Positions 32,602-60,600 of a stretch of 64,000 nt of DNA are shown here, one piece after another (the first letter of the stretch is position 1; each line of letters starts with the position of its first letter). The notes under the pieces were generated by a model. The model saw only the letters and a list, made by a program, of their open reading frames with translations, was not told where the DNA came from and ran no database searches. The DNA lies in contig NC_058043.1 in assembly GCF_020085105.1 (NCBI RefSeq), positions 13,339,167 through 13,403,166 on the forward strand, written 5' to 3'. The translations under genes and the position numbers were made by a program. Source of the DNA: Siniperca chuatsi. Its lineage: Eukaryota > Chordata > Actinopteri > Centrarchiformes > Sinipercidae.

Positions 32602-32668
32602 TGACGTAAACGAATGAGATCTCGCGAGACTTCCATTCGGCATCAGCCATGGTGTGAGCTCTTATAAG
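32602..32668 (+). promoter_or_regulatory. alas1: alas1 core promoter elements
   Basis: In 70 bases there are a CRE/ATF-like TGACGTAA (32602-32609), the perfect palindrome TCTCGCGAGA (32620-32629), a housekeeping-promoter motif, and a TATA-like TATAAG (32663-32668). Transcription would start around 32685-32697 if the TATA-like box is used. ALAS1 in mammals responds to cAMP/CREB and PGC-1alpha; the CRE-like site fits that, but its use here is inferred. Confidence 0.6.
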
Positions 32669-32688
32669 CACTTGCGCGTATTCGTCCT

Positions 32689-32719
32689 TTTCGTTCGTCC
32701 TCAGTGCAGGATAACGAGG
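32689..32719 (+). promoter_or_regulatory. iron-responsive element (IRE) in the alas1 leader
   Basis: The loop is CAGTGC (32702-32707). The upper stem is GTCCT (32697-32701) with AGGAT (32708-32712): U-A, C-G, C-G, U-A, G.U. An unpaired C at 32696 is the diagnostic bulge. The lower stem is 32689-32695 with 32713-32719 (U-A, U-A, G-C, C-G, U-A, U.G, U.G). This meets the canonical rule C-N5-CAGUGN-N5. IREs near the cap bind IRP1/IRP2 in low iron and block translation. From memory the core matches the ALAS2 element closely. Position just downstream of the TATA-like box would make it cap-proximal; if transcription starts after about 32695 the lower stem is lost. Confidence 0.72.
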
Positions 32720-32852
32720 CAGTCACCTTCTTCACCTTCTTTAAAAAAACGAGTAATTTGAGTGTAACATTAAATTAGCGTCGCTGCTATTATCCTGCCT
32801 ACTGCACGACTGCCGAAGAGGATCGCGCCATTAAGTGTGAAGTTTTTAAGAG
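32690..32852 (+). other. alas1: alas1 non-coding exon 1 (5' UTR)
   Basis: The region begins after the TATA-like box and ends at a donor (aagag|gtaaat, intron from 32853). It joins an acceptor at 34457-34458, so exon 2 starts at 34459 and has 33 nt of leader before the ATG. There is no upstream ATG in the exon. The 5' boundary is a prediction. Confidence 0.55.
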
Positions 32853-34491
32853 GTAAATTTCTTAATTCATTATCATCCATAGTTATCATCCCCACTTCTG
32901 GTTGTAGCTTCTTAGCTAATGTTAGCAGCCTAGCTAACGTTCACCTCGGTCGACACCGGCAAGTGGTCCGGCTAACGTTAAGACTCAGCCTGTCTTACGT
33001 TAACTAGGGTTTCCCATAACGCTGTTACCGTAACCGATCCAGTATTAACGTTAGAGACAGACAAGTCGTGACTCTTGCTCTGTTAATGTTTAATAATGCT
33101 TTGCGAGTCATCACGTAACGTTAACACCGCTTCAAAGGGCTTATGATCGCTTGCAAACGCTTCAGTGTGTCTAAAATGGTCAAGCTTGTAATAACAGTAA
33201 CGTAACTGTACCTAGAGTTTTGTGACAATATCATTGTTCTTATCCTGTAAAATTATACAGTGTAAGTAAGGATACCGGAGTTTTTAATCGGGTTACACAA
33301 TCTGACGGGATAACGTACAGTTTTTACACTCACGTGCTGACTTATTAGAGAAAAAAAAACACGAAATGTGATCAAAACTATCATCAAGACAAGCTGTTTA
33401 GGTAGCTTATTGGCTGTTATTTAAGGGAAAATAGTTACCAAAAAGTGTACCCGTTTTCTACTGGCTCTTATCCCCTTTCCTGGAACTTCCAGGGGAGTGG
33501 TTACTCTTATCGAGGAATGTGTAGACCTGGTTTCAACAGGGGCACGGGTATAACACACGGATAGATGTAGGCTATGTGATTTTCGTTTTTACGCAATGAG
33601 ACTTTTTAACGTGTTTATTACAATGTCATGATCAGACACACCTGTTGCAATGACCCAAGCAGTTAATCCAGTCAAAGAAATATGTATTTGTAAAGTGATG
33701 GTTTCCTTTGAAAAGGATGCGTGACACAAACTTGTAAAACTGATATTCACAAAGATGTTTCAGGGAGGTTCTCACAAAACCTTAGTAACACAGGTGATAG
33801 CACACTGTGATAAAACAGCCACAAATAGCTTGAAGGTCCATTATTGACTTTGAAAATAGCAGTTTGATGAAAAATTCCTAACATAAGGTCCACTTGAGTT
33901 TTCAGCCACCTCTTGTGACCTTCGTCACTGAGCAAACTACATCCGCCTATGAAAATTTCCAATACATGGACCTTGTGCTAAGAATGTAAGCTATCCTTTT
34001 CAGGTAGTTTTGGTCTGGACACATTAGAGCCTAATGGCATTTGCTCTGCGCTCCAAAAATGTTTCCATAACCAACAGTAACATCTCTCCAGAGCTATGAA
34101 ATTAATTTTACGAAAAGTCCACTAACATTGTTGTGAATAGTTTGATAGGAAACAATTTTCTCTACTCTGTACTCTGTCTTCCCTGCACAGAAAGAAGAAA
34201 CTCTTTACTTAAATATGTGCATTATTATTGAGTTATTGTGTGTAAATGACACTGAAACTCTTTGGATGGATTGATTGCATTTCAGGTAAAAAAAAAAAAA
34301 AAAAGGAGAAAAACAAGGAAAATGATGTCCTTTGTGTTTTTGGGTGCACTGTGCCTTTAAGCAAATACCCTGCAAAACAGGTTTTTGCAGTACATGGAAA
34401 CAAGTATCTGAACTTTCCCCGGCACAAGTTTCAATTACGTTTCAACTGTCTCCTTTAGACCGCTGGACAATCATCATCACCACTGCTGACT

Positions 34492-35119
34492 ATGGATGTG
34501 ATAGTGCGTCGCTGTCCTTTCCTGGCTCGTGTGCCCCAGGCATTCTTCCAGCAGACCAAAAAGTCTATGGTGGGGTACGCCCAGCGATGCCCCATCATGA
34601 TGGAGCTGGCCTCTAAACCTATGGCTCCATCAATGGCACGGGCCCTCTGCTCCTCGTCCTCCTCCTCCTCCCCCCACCACCAGAAGACTGGGGACACCAT
34701 GTCTGCCAGTGAAGGTGAGGGTGACAAAGAAGGAGTAGATACATGTTTTGACCTAATTAACACTGTAGCTACATTACAACAAGTGAAGCATCCCAGTTAA
34801 TGTTATGACTATCTATATCTAAAGTCTAAAACTTCTTTTGTCCACTTGCAGGCCCCTGTCAGGAAAGGGAGTCCAAGCAGCCTGCTGGCCACCCTGTGCT
34901 GCCCTCAGGCCAGGCGGTGGCCTCCAAATGCCCTTTCCTGGCTGCTGAGATGGGCCAGAAGAACAGCAGTGTGGTCCGCCAGGTCAGTGTGGAGTTCCAA
35001 GAGGATGTTCAGGAAGTCCGCACTGTGAAGAAAGGTAAGAGTTGTTTCGAAATATATTAAGACTACCCTGCTTTGGCCCATCATTTTGTACACAATCTAA
35101 TACTAATTTATTTTTGTCG

Positions 35120-35161
<42 letters not shown>

Positions 35162-38100
35162 GTGTCCTCTGCCCAGATGAAGAAGCCATCCTTGGCCAGT
35201 GCCATTAAGGGAAGCGGAGGAGAGCAAACTAATCTAATGAAGACCCTCCTGAAACAGCAACCTAAAAGGGTCTCCCACTTGCTACAGGACAACTTGCCAG
35301 GCAGTAGTAAGTTTTATTTGGGTGCTTACTCACACGGAAAAGTATTGACACAGAACTGCCATACTAGTTTGAACAAGTTGTTAAGCTACGACATGACTGT
35401 GATCATACTACCAACAGTTTCACTTTTTTTTATTAATAGTCATTTTGAAGTCAGCATGTGTTGTTCCTTTTGAGTAAGGTGAGCTGAGACTTTCATCATG
35501 TTAGGCATTGCTTCATCCGTCACAGCGCAAGCCACATTAAGCAAGCTTTGTCTTCCTGTTCTGTTACAGTGTCCCGCTACCATTATGATGACTTTTTTGA
35601 GAAGAAGATAGTAGAGAAGAAGAGTGACCACACATACCGCGTGTTTAAGACCGTGAATCGTCTGGCCAACGAGTTCCCCATGGCCGACGACTTCACAGGC
35701 TCTTTAGAGGATAAGAGGGAGGTGTCCGTTTGGTGCAGCAACGACTACCTGGGCATGAGTCGACACCCACGGGTCGTGCAGTCCATAATGTGAGTATTGG
35801 AGGAATTGTTTTAGTGTGTGGGGGGGGGGCACACACACACTTGATTCAGTCCCTTGGGTCTAGATGTGTTTACATGTAATGAGACAAATATTTTTCTTGA
35901 CTGTCCATGTCTCCTGTTGACGCTGTTGAGTTTGGAGAGAGAAAGAAACTGAGAAAAGTTGAGACACAGCACATGAATACAACCTGACACCCATTGGTGA
36001 TTCAGTCCATTGTTTGTGTGGGTGTAGATTTTTAATTGGCCATAGTTTACACCTAAACCTCATGGACCCCAGTGAGGTGGGATGTTTTTCTTTTCCTTTC
36101 TGCTTGTTTGAGCTTGCCCAGCTCTCTCAGCAGTAACACCTTGAAGCAAGGTGCCACTCACCACTAAGCAACTATCCTTCTTAATTATTCAGATGTTTCT
36201 ATTTCTTGTATTCTTACCCTTCCTTCAGCTTGCATCTGGCATACAAGTGTGTAGTACTTCTGCTGTGCAGCTTCAAAAAACAGATGAGATAAAACTAATG
36301 TTTTGTTTGTCTTTCTTGTCCTCTGTTTCCAGGGAAACTCTACAAAAGCATGGTTCAGGGGCAGGAGGCACCAGAAATATCTCTGGCACCAGTAAATTCC
36401 ATGTGGAGCTGGAACACGAGCTGGCTGACCTTCACAAGAAGGACGCTGCACTGCTCTTCACCTCCTGCTTTGTCGCCAATGACTCCACCCTCTTCACCCT
36501 CGCCAAGATGCTGCCTGGTATAAAAAAAAATTCTATACGTTTACAATAAATCTGACATTTATGTGCATTTATAGTTGGTCATTAATTAATGTTTGACATT
36601 TATACATTAAATGAAGTCACTTTTAAACTTTGTTTAGCATCTCTTATTCTCACTTCCTCATTTTTTCTGAACTATTTTAGGTTGTGAGATCTACTCTGAT
36701 GCAGGCAACCATGCCTCGATGATCCAGGGTATCAGGAACAGTGGTGCTAGGAAATTTATTTTCCGCCACAATGACGTCGGCCATCTCCGAGAGCTTCTAC
36801 AGAAGGGAGATCCCACAAAACCGAAGATCGTGGCCTTTGAGACCGTCCATTCCATGGATGGTTAGTTGGGGATGGTCCCCCTTTTTTAAAAACATATATA
36901 AAAACTAGCTTATTACATGGTTGCTCAAATAAAGTTATTTAATTGTCTAGAAAAGGAGTTTATGGAGGTGGGGTCAGTCTAAAATGACCTATTTTTGTGC
37001 CTGTAGTTTGGCTAACGGCTAAACTTTTTGTTTCTTTCTGTAACACAGGTGCTGTATGTCCGCTGGAGGAGATGTGCGATGTGGCCCATGAGTTTGGTGC
37101 CATCACCTTCGTAGACGAGGTTCACGCTGTGGGCCTGTATGGCGCCAGAGGAGGGGGCATTGGAGACAGAGATGGCGTCATGCACAAGATGGATATCATC
37201 TCAGGGACACTAGGTCAGAATGTAATCTCTACTAAAACAAATCACTGATGATATTCTACTAGGCATTTTCACTTTGAAGCCATGCCAAAATGTTTTTGAG
37301 CCATTACGTGAACAATTTATAGTTCTCATAAATGGATCTCTTTCCATTTATAGTTTGCTGTATTTTTCATTTGTATATTTTTATGAAACTACTCCTAGCT
37401 AGTGGGATCTCCTAGCTCTCTGTTTTGTTGATATACTCAGGATGAGGCCTCACTTGTGTCACCCAATATGCCAGAGGGCATATTAAAGAAGATGGAGCAG
37501 CTCTGTTGTTGCTATGATACTGTGGGCTCTTGTTGCGCTCTTATTGAGTTACTCTCTGTGTCTGTGTGTAGCTGTCAAGCTGAGGGGACAATTATTTCTA
37601 ACTCAGAGCTCAACAGCCCCTGTACTCCTGCAGCTGCCATTTCAGAATAATCTAGTTTGTGAGATTACACTGGGAGGATTTTGCATAGACCGCTGAGCGT
37701 AATGTGGTGACTGTTTTTAAACGAATGTTTGTTTAAAGGATACAAAATGATGTCTCTGGAGGTGTAGCAACAACCTAGATTTAAGAATAACCACCTATGT
37801 GTCACGTCCTCTTCCAGGCAAGGCCTTCGGCTGTGTGGGTGGCTACATCGCAAGTACAGCTGCTCTGGTGGACACGGTGCGTTCCTACGCTGCTGGTTTC
37901 ATCTTCACCACCTCTCTGCCACCAATGCTGTTAGCCGGAGCCAGGCAGTCGATCCAGGTTCTTAAAGGGGAAGAGGGTCGCGCACTGAGACGTAAACACC
38001 AGCGCAATGTCAAGCTGCTCAGACAAATGCTGATGGACTCAGGGCTGCCCGTGGTGCACTGCCCTAGCCACATCATCCCAGTCCGGGTAATTTATTATTT

Positions 38101-39388
38101 AATTTATTGCCTAACGGCATGAAATTTGATGCACGCCAATGGTATACCCAGCCACATTACAATTGCAAACATACTAAATAGTTCTTAGTTCAGGGCTATT
38201 CAATTACAAATTCAATAGGGCCAGATTTTAAAACCAGGAAATGTAGATGGGCCAGACATTTTCAGCAGCTTATTTAAAACCTTTTTTTAGCTGTGTGTTG
38301 CCCCGGAAAATGATATTCCTTAACCACCACAACGCACAAATGAAACACATTGTTTTGGCATTTGGAGATGGCGGTAAAATAAACCAAAGTACTTGCTAGT
38401 CCAGGCAGGGTTAAACTCAGGGTTAAATTTTCCTTTTCAGGGTTGATGGAAACATACTGTAAAATTTCAATTAAAAGCCAAGCCCCAATTAAACGCTGAG
38501 TCCCTTTTACTGGCCGGGTGTGGCAACACGTTTTGACAAATAAATGCAGGTCTCAATTAGACGGCAGGTCTGGTTTTTATAGAAGCGAGATGGCTCACTT
38601 GTTAGCTACTTGCCTACCTTAGTCCCTCTCCCCAGTGCCTCCATTCTAATGGCCGTGTGTGTCTCTTTTATTATTTTTAGGTGTCAGACGCAGAGAAAAA
38701 CACAGAGGTGTGTGACCTCATGATGAGTCGCCACAACATCTATGTGCAAGCCATCAACTATCCCACCGTTGCCAGGGGAGACGAGCTTCTGCGTATTGCC
38801 CCAACACCTCACCACACCCCTGAGATGATGAAATACTTTGTTGGTAAGAAGATCTATTAGTCTTGTTAATGTGTTTCAGTTAAAATGTAAATTCACCCTG
38901 TAGGACATAAAACATTCCCTTATTTGTATTGGAGATTTTCATTTTCACAGATCATCTTAAATGTATAATTTGTTTTAATCAAATAGATCGAGATGGTTGT
39001 TAAACTTCCATCTTAATTTAAATAGTATACACAGGTGCATTTCCTCATGCTTTCACCACTTTTGAAAGGATTAAAGTCAAAATTCTATAGTGGCTCATAC
39101 AATTTGCATTCAATGAGACTTCATCAAAGCAGCTTTAGCAACTTCATGGAAACTGTAACCGACTGTAGCTTTCTTTCATTAATAAAAGTTAACTGGACCT
39201 CCACTTTTTTCTGTTTTCGCTCTACAGAGAGGCTGGTGCACACATGGAAGGAGTCGGGCCTGGAGCTGAAGCCCCACTCATCAGGAGAGTGTACCTTCTG
39301 CCAGCAACCACTGCACTTTGAGCTGATGAGCGAGCGAGAAAAGTCTTACTTCAGTGGCCTCAGCCACCCTATCTCAGCCTGCGCATAA
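34492..39388 (+). CDS. alas1: 5-aminolevulinate synthase, housekeeping (ALAS1)
   Basis: Coding exons: 34492-34714, 34852-35034, 35160-35306, 35570-35789, 36333-36517, 36681-36860, 37049-37213, 37818-38086, 38681-38843 and 39228-39388. Together they are 1896 nt, 631 residues plus stop, all GT-AG and in frame. The enzyme condenses glycine and succinyl-CoA in the mitochondrial matrix, the rate-limiting step of heme synthesis. Heme-regulatory CP motifs lie at Cys8 (RRCPFL), Cys33 (QRCPIM) and Cys101 (SKCPFL); heme binding there blocks import in mammals. The PLP fold begins near 186; [12 protein letters not shown] is the glycine loop, VDEVHAVG holds the cofactor Asp, and TLGK gives the Schiff-base Lys436. 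The N-terminus and tail [12 protein letters not shown] match ALAS1, not ALAS2. Human ALAS1 has 640 residues. Neighbour poc1a repeats the human 3p21 order. Confidence 0.97.
35122..35156 (+). repeat. alas1: poly(T) tract forming the alas1 exon 3 acceptor
   Basis: 35 consecutive T directly precede the acceptor AAG (35157-35159), so the homopolymer is the polypyrimidine tract of the following coding exon. Confidence 0.95.
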
Positions 39389-54630: not shown

Positions 54631-57600
54631 ATGACTTCTGCACTGGTGAGTGTACGTTAGCAGCTGGGTGGCACTTGAGCCTGAAGTTCGTTCCTCGTTT
54701 GTAGCTTCACTGTCGCTACCTACAAGTAAAAGTAGCTAGATAGTAGCAACACAGAATTACTTTTAAATGATATGGGAACTGTCTCAATTTACCCAAGGCT
54801 TAATCTTCGAGGCTAAATGTCGCGTAAAGTTATTTCAGGCATGTTTTTGAGTTAGAAGGGAGGATCTGTAATTGAAACAGGTGTCTATGACGGAAAGTGC
54901 CAGATTGGGACAAATTGGTAATCATGTCACAAAATGGAAGTGTATGTCAGGAAATGTCTACAGTACGTTTTAAGTCAGTACAGGCTAAGTATACAGCACA
55001 ACTAATTTCAAAGCTTATGAGCAACTAAAACCTCAGAAATAGAAATCAACCCGCTATAAAATGAATAAAAAAACTATACTTTTGTGTGTGTGTATGGGGG
55101 GTCACACAATGTCAAAGTGGATTACTATTCTGTCTGCCATGCTTTTACTGCAATCTGTCTACATTTACACTTGTGTAATAAACATAGGCGATGTAGTCAT
55201 GAAATTGATGTTGTCTGTATGTTAAATAGTTTAAAAGTAACTACATTGTCTCACTGCAGTAAATTGTGCTATTAAGAGTTTGTATTGTATAATTTCGTGT
55301 ACGCTGCTTAAGTGTCATATTTAGGTTGTAGTTAGGTTGTGTATGGAGGATGGAGTGAAATCATTGAAAACTGGCATGGTGCTGAATAAAGTAGGAGTGG
55401 GAGTTGTTATATCCTGAAAGCATAGTTGTTTTGTGTAGATGGTCTTTGTAGAACTTTTTAAATACTTTCAGCAGTTTGAATCAGTTTATCAAGCTTTGGA
55501 CCAATTAAACAACTATAGTGCAGTTTTTTTTTCTTATAGCACACTGATTCGTATCTTGCTTGTATCTCCATAGCTGGCCACAATTTACTTCATCTATTCA
55601 CATGTTTATGAGTGTTTTAGATTTGGAAAAATACTTTGGAAAAATACTCAACCTGCTGCTACACCAACTTTGTCTCATAAGCAAATATTATGAATGTCAT
55701 CCAAGTTCAGAAAAATACACAAAATACAATTCTATGTATTTAAAAAAAAAGCTAGTAAAATATGACTTATGGGCAGTGTAATGTGTTGCAGGGATCTGGG
55801 TGGGGGGCGCATATCAACATGGAACCAACTTCGTTAGGACGATAGTTTATTTACATACACTTACTAAGTGATACATACAAACACAAACGCAATTTAGAAA
55901 AAAAGTACAAAACTTTACTAAAAACAAGTCAGACCTCCGCCTGTATAATATATAATCCATCACAATATCCTAAAGTCCTTTTCATTTCACCGTGTTAACT
56001 CTCGACGCCATATTTGTCGAAGTGTCTCACGATAATGCCTAGCTCCAGCTCCACTGTTCCCATGGCTTCAGTGTGCAGTCTGTATCTGTCCGCCCCACTG
56101 TATACGAGGTCCGGGGTGCGGAGCTGGGGACCTCCGCCGACAAACATTTGCGCCAACTGCTCTTGCCAGGTGCCGAGCGGCCTCCAGGTTGCACAGCTTA
56201 TCCGGTGATGTCCGGGGCTAGAGGGGACATGGCAGTACCCGTAACCGTACAGCTGGCAGCGTCCGAAAGAGTCATGGTGCCACACTTGGAGGTGAAGCTT
56301 TGGCCAGCCTTGGAGTCCCTTAGTCGCGTAGTGCAGATCAATCGGGTGACTCCAGTACGCCATGTCTCCTGTTTGGGGGATATCCACCTGGGTCTGACCC
56401 TCCTTTAGCCCAGCCAGAAGACGCCATGCTCCTCCCGTATGAATTCCCCATTTGCAAAATAGGCTGTTTTGCGGGAAACCACTGGCCCCAACGATCTGGC
56501 CTATAATGTGCAGCTCTGCCATGTTACAAATGCCCCCTTACACAAAAACATGCGGCACCGAAAGTCCTCTCTACTCTCCCTCCGAGTTTAACGGCTAGCA
56601 GTGACTAGCACCACAGCTCGCGTCTCCTTGGTAACTCAGCCTGCCGTTCTAACGGCAGCATTGCACCCTGAAAAGAGTTTTCCAGGCAGCACTTCCGGTC
56701 ACGATGCGTACTGATCATGCATTCTTGAATAGGATTTAGAGACCAAAAGCATGACAACGGCAAAATTCGTGTTAGTTTTTACAACACAATACTTGAAAAA
56801 TAGGTAATTTGACTGGTAGAGATTGTTGGTGGTGGCACAAATTAGGAACTGCTACCTGGCAGGCTAAGCACAGGGGAATAGACCTACGGTATCGCTGCTT
56901 TTGACGTGTTACCTTGTTTGGCATCGTTTATAAGATAACATCTGTGGACTGGAGACAAAATAAGACACCACCAAATGTTAGTTTCTCATGATCAGCCAGT
57001 GACGACGACTGAATTCAGCATTACTTCTATCCTCAAAACGAGTGTTAATTGGTTGGTCTGTCTGGATTTAAACAGGCTTCAGAGTCTAGGAACAAGTACA
57101 CTGTGAAACAGCGCCACTCCATGGCAGCAGTGCTTCCAACTACTCAAACCAATATTTTTTTTGTAGTAGAAAATGCACTATGTGGTCAAAACTGGTCCAC
57201 ATTTTTTATGTACGTTTTGGTGTGTGGTTGTTTTTCATGAATTAGTTCAAAGTCTTGTGGACTGTTTTCCCAGACGAGTGGAGGCTGTTATGGTTGTACA
57301 TTAATCCCCATGGTTTAGGAAGGAGATTTTTAACAATCATATATGCATATAATAGGCCTTTTTCACAGCAGACATTTTTACTTGTCATAGTAGGGAAGGC
57401 ACAGGTGTTACTAATAACATTAATGATGGCTCTGTTCTATTCAAGTGTCCCAGTAAGCCATGACAGTGAGCCAGCATGCGCAACACCAGGACCCTGAAAC
57501 TGAAGCAGCTAAATGGAATTCAGCCATCATTAATGTTATTATTAACACCTGTGCTTTTCCTACCGTAACATGTCTTCTAGAGTGAAAAAGACCTGTGTTT

Positions 57601-60600
57601 TAGTGAACACACACCTTGTTCTGCTGTCCTAATGCTTCTGGCTACATAATGTATGTAGCTGGATTCTCAGTAGCATTTTTATGACAATTGTTGTATTTTA
57701 CAGGCAAAAAGTTTACCTTGCTTTACTTGCCTACAAGCTGTCTTGAAAACAGAATACAGGTAGCTGCACAAACGCTTTAACTCATTTCAGAGAATGTCAC
57801 CAGTTTTTAGCAAATATGACAATTATGGGGTTGTTTGCTCATGTTGCCAACTTTTCCAGCTACTTTTCTGGTCTGGTTAATTGCCCTCCTCACTTTGCTA
57901 ATCTTAATGACCAAGTAAGTTGGTTTAATGACTTGTGTACATCTGCCCTTGACTCTTCCGCTCCATTCACCTCCAGGGCTGTCCCAGTTATTAATACAAC
58001 CCCTTGGATCAATGATAACATCAGACAACAAAGAAGGGAATATAGAAAAGCTGAACGTAGATGGAAAAAATCCAAACTCGAAGTTCACCACCTCCATATG
58101 ACAGAGCTTTTGTTAACACTGAACCAGAAAAGATGCGCGAGCTGGCTACTTCTCTGACTTGATTACTAGCAACAAACACAATCCAAGATTTCTGTTTAGT
58201 ACTATTAATCAGTTTGTAAATCCTTTTCTTCCTGTCATTCCTGCCTCATCTTCTATGGACTGTGAAAACTTCTTATCATTTTTTATTGGCAAGATCTGAG
58301 GTCCAATTTTACTGTTTTACCCTCCGCACCATTCAGCTGTCCTATTTTACTGTCTGAATTTGCCCCTATCTCCCTGCAGATCCTTTTTGACACTGTAGCG
58401 CATATGCGTCCCTCCTCCAGTCCCTGTGATAAAGTTCCCACGAAATTCCTAAAATCCATCCTTCCTGTCTTAGGTCCCAGCCTGCTCGCTATCATCCACA
58501 ACTCTCTCACATCCGGGTCTGTACCTGACTATTTTAAAATTACCAGTGTCCAGCTACTTCTTAAAGAACCTTCTTTCGACCCATCCCAGTTATAAAACTA
58601 TAGACCGATTTCCAAGCTACCCTTCATATCCAAAATCAAATTTAAAAAAATCATTACAGACCAACTCCTGAAATTGATTGAAGGTCACAATCATAGTACT
58701 GAAACCGCATTACTAAGGGTGACAAATGACATTCTTATGCATGAAGACAAAAGTGAATACTCAATCCTCATTCTACTGGATTTGACTGCTGCCTTTGATA
58801 TTATCGATCATGCCATTTTACTTGATAGGTTACATCACTGGGTTGGCATTTCTGGTACAGCTCTAAACTAGTTTAATTCTTATTTGACTAATAGATATTT
58901 TAATGTTTGTATTAATAATCATGTGTCGTCCTCAGCTCCCCTGCTGTGTGGAGTCCCTCAGGGGTCGGCCCTTGGATCAATACTCTTCTCATTGTACATG
59001 CTTCCTCTGGGTCATTTGTTCAGCCGCTTTCATGTCATGTCATATCACTGTTATGCCAATGATATACAGATCAGTTTCTCTGCCAAACCCAATAACCTGA
59101 ATCAACTGTCCTCCCTCTATGATTGCTTAGCCGCCTCCACCTACTTACTTACTTACTTACTTTCTCCATACAGTGTGATCCAATTCTAGAGAGACATTTC
59201 AAGGGTCACAGGGACACTGTGACAAGTGTGGACTTCAGCTGCAACACGAAGCAGATTGGTAACTGCTACTTCTTTTTTCTCTGTGTTTGTCTGTCTGTGG
59301 CCAGATAATTTGCTGCAGCTGTTTGCTGTTGTCTTTTTATTTTATGTTCTGTGTGGTATGTTTTCTGCAGTCATACACAATGTGTTCAGTTCACTCACCT
59401 GTGCTCCCTCCTCTCCCAGCCACAGGCTCTATGGACTCCTGTGTGATGATCTGGAACATGAAACCTCAGATGCGAGCGTATCGTTTTGATGGACACAAAG
59501 ATGCTGTCATTTCTGTTCAGTTTTCTCCCTCTGGCCACCTGGTGGCCTCCGCCTCCAGAGACAAGACTGTACGTCTTTGGGTGCCCAGCATGTGAGTTTT
59601 GAAGTATTTCACCTTTGTTTTTTAGTACATCTCTTATCATCTCTCATCATTATTATTATTATTGTTATTATTATTGTATTCCACTAGAAAGCTACCACAA
59701 AGGACAATGACGCTGACTCATAAAAGCAGCAAAACAAGACAGTTCTGCCAGCACAGAAGAAGGCACGCATTTCTGAACACCCACTGGTTTTTGATTGTTT
59801 GTTTTAAACTTTAGTGTTGTCTTGGTGTTTGTGTGTGTACAGGAAGGCTGAGTCAACAGCTTTCAGGGCTCACACTGCCACCGTGCGCAGCGTTAACTTT
59901 TCTGGTGACGGACAGACTCTGGTCACAGCCTCTGACGACAAGACTATCAAAGTCTGGACTATCCACAGGCAAAAGTTTCTCTTCTCTCTCAACCAGCACA
60001 TCAACTGGGTCCGCTGTGCCAAGTACGATGCACACACACATACAGTTTTCGCAGATTTATATCATTAGCTGCTTCAGATATTTCTACTTCTATTGTTAGT
60101 TGCATTTGTGTTATTTGTGTTATTTATATTTATATATACAAAGATTCTATACTACTTCTCTTTCTGAATTGTTTTACAACTTTAATGAATACATGTCAAT
60201 AGTAAAACTGAAGCTGAAGACTCAGATTATGGCCAGTTTTTGATGTAGAATTTCATATAAATACATTTATACATTTCTTGCAGGTTTTCTCCAGACGATC
60301 GTTTGATTTTGTCGTCCAGTGATGATAAGACTATAAAGCTATGGGACAAGAATAGCAGAGAGTGTATTCATTCTTTCTATGAACATGCTGGGTGAGCACT
60401 TGAAACCAGAATTGCAGTGAGACAACAAGCAGAATCCATATTTTTTTGTCAGTGTTTCCTATGGTATTTTTGTAAATGTTGAGGATTTAGAGCATTATCT
60501 ACTGTGTGTGTCGTGTAAAAATATTCCAAGTCAAACATTTTCTCTGGTGGGTGTTTCCAAGTAATATTTTAGAACAAAGGTTTTGTGTTAGTTGTATTAA

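Follow-up and report, generated by a model that had tools for sequence, protein, structure and literature searches.

The window, by which we mean the whole 64-kb stretch of Siniperca chuatsi DNA that was analysed, carries on its plus strand an alas1 gene whose coding region (34492..39388) is divided among 10 coding exons, which were assembled by eye from their GT-AG boundaries, and encodes a protein of 631 amino acids. Pfam identified the ALAS presequence (Preseq_ALAS, PF09029) and the aminotransferase I/II domain (PF00155) in this protein. Three N-terminal CP motifs are present, RCPFL at residue 8, RCPIM at residue 33, and KCPFL at residue 101, and the catalytic part contains two further CP pairs, at residues 383 and 516. 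Each of the three N-terminal motifs fits the definition that PMC3904948 gives of the classic heme-regulatory motif. In a homologue search, the first seven of the best 120 of 8000 scored sequences were teleost ALAS proteins named "nonspecific", with 90–93% identity (Toxotes 93%), and no erythroid label appeared among the names shown for these 120, the names being partial and some rows unnamed. The closest solved structure to the protein, 5qqq, is that of an erythroid-specific ALAS, a match that only reflects which structures have been solved. Judged by its sequence, the gene is ALAS1, the housekeeping form of the enzyme that opens heme synthesis.

On the same strand, upstream of the ATG at 34492, lies an iron-responsive element (IRE) at 32689-32719 (TTTCGTTCGTCCTCAGTGCAGGATAACGAGG), identified with a full structural descriptor and with covariance models. 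It falls in a putative non-coding exon 1 of alas1 (32680..32852, +), the 5′ end of which is an assumed start and which is followed by a donor GT after 32852. Exon 2 (34459..34714, +) supplies the last 33 leader bases and then the ATG. Counted from 32680 as the assumed start, this leader has 206 nt and no upstream ATG, and its 10th base is the first of the IRE. A TATAA box-like sequence at 32663..32667 (+), which may serve as a TATA box, starts 26 bases ahead of the IRE. An earlier note on this DNA had described just this arrangement, with a TATA-like box followed by an IRE on the sense strand of a gene for ALAS1 that keeps its heme-regulated CP motifs, and the IRE, its strand, the ALAS1 identity, and the CP motifs were borne out.

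Of the window, in which 66 open frames of 90 amino acids or more exist, 30 open frames were given to Pfam, and four had a match. An open frame of 180 amino acids at 55995-56537 (minus strand) contains a B9-C2 domain, that of a ciliary basal body protein. Two reverse transcriptase pieces (RVT_1, of which one passed the cut-off and the other fell below it) at 58596-59592 (plus strand) adjoin a WD40 exon. The WD40 gene POC1A is the neighbour of ALAS1 in human, and the WD40 exon in the window therefore suggests that synteny may be kept.

Structure of the element

The element has the architecture of a canonical IRE, as the earlier note had proposed from its loop, two stems, and bulge. The lower stem is formed by 32689-32695 with 32713-32719, in which seven of seven positions pair and the two outermost pairs are U-G. 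A bulged, unpaired C follows at 32696, five bases 5′ of the loop, and the upper stem, 32697-32701 with 32708-32712, is paired at five of five positions with one G-U at its base. The loop, CAGTGC at 32702-32707, is of the canonical CAGUGN six-base type. When pairing was required, the full IRE descriptor matched once in the 64 kb, both strands included. Among 300 dinucleotide shuffles, searched on one strand each, a match with at least 5 lower pairs arose 0 times, and matches with at least 3 lower pairs arose at 0.003 per shuffle. The bare core, C-N5-CAGTG, is uninformative alone, because it was found 39 times in the window against a mean of 33 expected by chance. The folding energy of the isolated 51-nt stretch was also considered as a test for an IRE and was dropped, since this energy (−10.7 kcal/mol, z = −1.27) is not exceptional and only mildly more stable than that of shuffled sequences, 24 of 200 of which were equally good.

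Profile scoring and ferritin controls

At its own cut-offs, Rfam returned no IRE for the window, and shorter stretches of 401 and 71 bases likewise gave none at E-values up to 10. The Rfam family concerned, RF00037 (IRE_I), has 36 positions and a curated cut-off of 34 bits, which the alas1 element does not reach, so that it is not filed under that family. When the genome was scanned with RF00037 (82 of 390,970 first-look candidates scored), two places exceeded the cut-off, with 53.3 and 47.7 bits. Since both lie at ferritin genes, the family model seems to be fitted to ferritin-type IREs, and this is probably the cause of the Rfam miss at alas1. The two ferritin-type IREs, L002 (G000:C1:14296379-14296414) and L003 (G000:C21:19350683-19350718), each upstream of a ferritin gene, were used as controls. 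These genes were assigned to ferritin from translations read by eye and from Pfam PF00210: of the two L003 pieces, one exceeded the PF00210 cut-off and the other had no match, and the short L002 piece scored below the cut-off. The C bulge, the upper stem, the CAGTG loop, and the position upstream of a coding region are common to these ferritin 5′ IREs and the alas1 element, whereas only the ferritin IREs reach RF00037.

Because Rfam gave no IRE at alas1, we built covariance models of our own from human IRE cores as printed in PMC12845348. Model R1 comprises four cores cut to 23 bases (eALAS, ferroportin, mitochondrial aconitase, and ferritin), and model R2 comprises the three that are not from ALAS. 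For R1, the IREs of TfR1 and DMT1 were set aside, because one of them, as printed, misfits the 23-base frame and the other carries an additional bulge. With E-values that are rough for both models, the alas1 element was the top match in the window with R1 (27.7 bits, E = 0.00015; next match 15.5 bits, E = 0.25) and again with R2, from which the eALAS core is absent (21.5 bits, E = 0.0034; next match 15.0 bits, E = 0.25). At the two ferritin genes of the S. chuatsi genome, R1 scored 29.0 and 24.0 bits, with the alas1 element between them, in a comparison for which the training cores include human ferritin and eALAS. That the window holds a genuine canonical IRE at 32689-32719 on the plus strand is confirmed.

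Relation to the human ALAS2 IRE

The likeness to the ALAS2 IRE, which the earlier note had pointed out, is close. Comparison of the 23-nt core with the published human eALAS (ALAS2) IRE, as it appears in PMC12845348, showed 21 of 23 bases to be identical, with the same loop and bulge. Both of the differences keep the pairing (U-G to U-A and G-C to G-U). Pairing is standard in 40 of 40 cells across five IREs, and each of the 8 pairs varies on both sides. The human element belongs to the erythroid paralogue and the alas1 element to the housekeeping ALAS, and the near identity of the two does not by itself tell descent from old conversion. One copy of the element was found in the 719-Mb genome, and a pattern search for the 26-nt core that tolerated up to 3 mismatches gave no other, a result that does not show alas2 to be without an IRE.

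Transcription start and folding of the leader

The usual spacing between a TATA box and the transcription start is about 30 bases. Applied to the TATAA at 32663-32667, this spacing predicts a start at about 32691-32696, which is within the element, and transcription may thus begin in the lower stem of the IRE. When only the first 70 bases were folded, the predicted structure contained the IRE for assumed starts at 32670, 32680, 32684, 32689, and 32692, while no IRE formed from 32694 or 32698 and only the upper stem formed from 32696.

Folding was also predicted for RNAs of increasing length. For RNA ending at 32725, the IRE had a probability of 0.71 to 0.81 from eight starts between 32640 and 32691, and when the RNA was extended to about 32800, the IRE was displaced, with a probability of 0.012 or less for all eight. 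In folds of the whole leader, the probability was 0.32 from 32689 and 0.24 from 32691, and it did not exceed 0.004 for any of the six other starts; from the assumed start at 32680, it was about 1e-5. The sequence TTATCCTGC at 32790..32798 (+) is an exact 9-base complement of the 3′ arm of the IRE at 32706-32714 (GCAGGATAA), and in the predicted leader fold from 32680, these two segments are paired. When the downstream leader was shuffled (start 32680), 7 of 1000 shuffles masked the IRE at least as strongly, and 39 of 1000 reached a probability below 0.001.

The fold of the full leader was considered as evidence against function and was judged not decisive, because the ferritin IRE of L003 likewise drops to a probability of 0.003 when its leader is folded in this way, a weaker loss (single ferritin leader, four assumed starts). 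A speculative reading of the predicted folds, to which we give little credence, is that the alas1 leader is a two-state RNA, in which exon 1 from about 32790 could sequester the IRE and the choice of start site or a bound factor would decide whether iron control operates.

Discussion

The locus thus combines a gene that is ALAS1 by its sequence with a canonical IRE upstream of its coding region. A survey of ALAS IREs that included teleosts was published in PLoS One in 2014, reportedly with Tzou as first author. In this survey (PMC3904948), which applied the SIREs program to the 5′UTRs of four teleost ALAS1 genes, IREs are given for 3 of 4 teleost ALAS1 5′UTRs, and for 0 of 5 in mammals and 0 of 5 in birds, reptiles, and amphibians. 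These teleost IREs correspond to the one described here in type, in gene, and in animal group. A teleost alas1 IRE is, therefore, already known in kind, having been published as a prediction in 2014. For ALAS2, PMC3904948 lists IREs in 9 of 9 vertebrate 5′UTRs in Table 4, where its text says nine of thirteen, and in 3 of 3 from teleosts. The contrast "alas1, not alas2" drawn in the earlier note is incomplete on this count, and the note's reading as a whole is supported in part. Outside the vertebrates, ALAS IREs are given in PMC3904948 for 1 of 2 chordates and for the single echinoderm surveyed; those of tunicate and sea urchin are of high quality, and IREs of medium quality are given for sea anemone and honey bee. 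The proposal made in PMC3904948 is that the ancestral ALAS had both an IRE and heme motifs and that teleosts retained the IRE in ALAS1; none of its classic heme motifs were found in teleost ALAS2. Our literature search, conducted mostly below full-text level, found no other report on teleost ALAS1 IREs, and the portions consulted of PMC3904948, PMC12845348, PMC8466369, PMC8146209, and PMC7992352 contain no experimental test of an alas1 IRE in fish.

Taken together, we consider it likely that the element is a genuine 5′ IRE in non-coding exon 1 of teleost alas1, inherited from the ALAS gene that preceded the split into two and placing the mRNA under iron control through IRP. The alternative that bears most directly on its activity is that an old ALAS IRE is present in the DNA but that the main transcription start falls inside the hairpin, leaving most mRNAs without the lower stem and iron control weak or dependent on the start used. 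The distance of 26 bases from the first base of the TATAA to the IRE, and the loss of the IRE from the first-70-base folds once the start reaches 32694, are in keeping with such a start. Both arms are intact, however, down to the outermost pairs, and the 5′UTR IREs in three of the four teleost ALAS1 genes of PMC3904948 imply IRE-containing transcripts in other teleosts; we hold this alternative to be unlikely. Less probable still is that teleost alas1 acquired the IRE anew, either through gene conversion from alas2 or through convergence, instead of retaining an ancestral one. The ALAS1 5′UTRs without an IRE in five mammals and five birds, reptiles, and amphibians would fit a regain, but the presence of IREs in tunicate and sea urchin ALAS, likewise from PMC3904948, makes loss in tetrapods the simpler history, and the lack of a second copy of the 26-nt core within 3 mismatches makes a recent conversion, from an alas2 carrying a similar IRE, less likely.

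That the hairpin has arisen by chance and has no function is hardly credible. The abundance of the bare core and the ordinary folding energy of the 51-nt stretch would be expected of a chance hairpin, yet the full descriptor with at least 5 lower pairs was absent from all 300 shuffles, the E-values obtained with R1 and R2 are low even if rough, and a match to an ALAS IRE at 21 of 23 bases, found upstream of an ALAS gene, makes chance very unlikely. It is just as implausible that the gene is a misnamed alas2, in which an IRE would be expected. The resemblance to the human ALAS2 IRE could be read in this way, as could the erythroid-specific ALAS among solved structures, but the latter only reflects what has been solved, the nearest named relatives among the best 120 of 8000 are "nonspecific" with no erythroid name among those shown, some of which are truncated or missing, and the three N-terminal CP motifs are of the classic type that PMC3904948 did not find in teleost ALAS2.

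The alas1 IRE is real and well placed, and it is very probably functional, with binding by IRP and repression of translation as the expected activities. In the established IRE/IRP system, mRNAs with a 5′ IRE are kept from translation when iron is low, because IRP sits on the element, and in mammals such an IRE is known from the red-cell ALAS gene. PMC3904948 also summarises this translational block in low iron. Under the preferred explanation, that of an ancestral and functional IRE, the whole hairpin would lie within the alas1 mRNA and would share common descent with the ALAS2 IRE, having been present in the ancestral ALAS gene before the ALAS1/ALAS2 split and retained in teleosts by alas1. 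When iron is scarce, IRP1 or IRP2 would occupy the cap-proximal hairpin and keep ribosomes from loading; with enough iron, the mRNA would be translated, so that ALAS1 would be made only with iron at hand. The three CP motifs of the ALAS1 protein would add feedback by heme to this iron control.

The points of interest in this element are the predicted dual control, the position of the start site, and the odd fold of the leader. Mammalian ALAS1, as generally described, is without such control of translation by iron supply. If the element is functional, the housekeeping ALAS of teleosts would be tied to iron at the level of translation and to heme at the level of the protein, which bears on how the two vertebrate ALAS genes divided the controls of their common ancestor.
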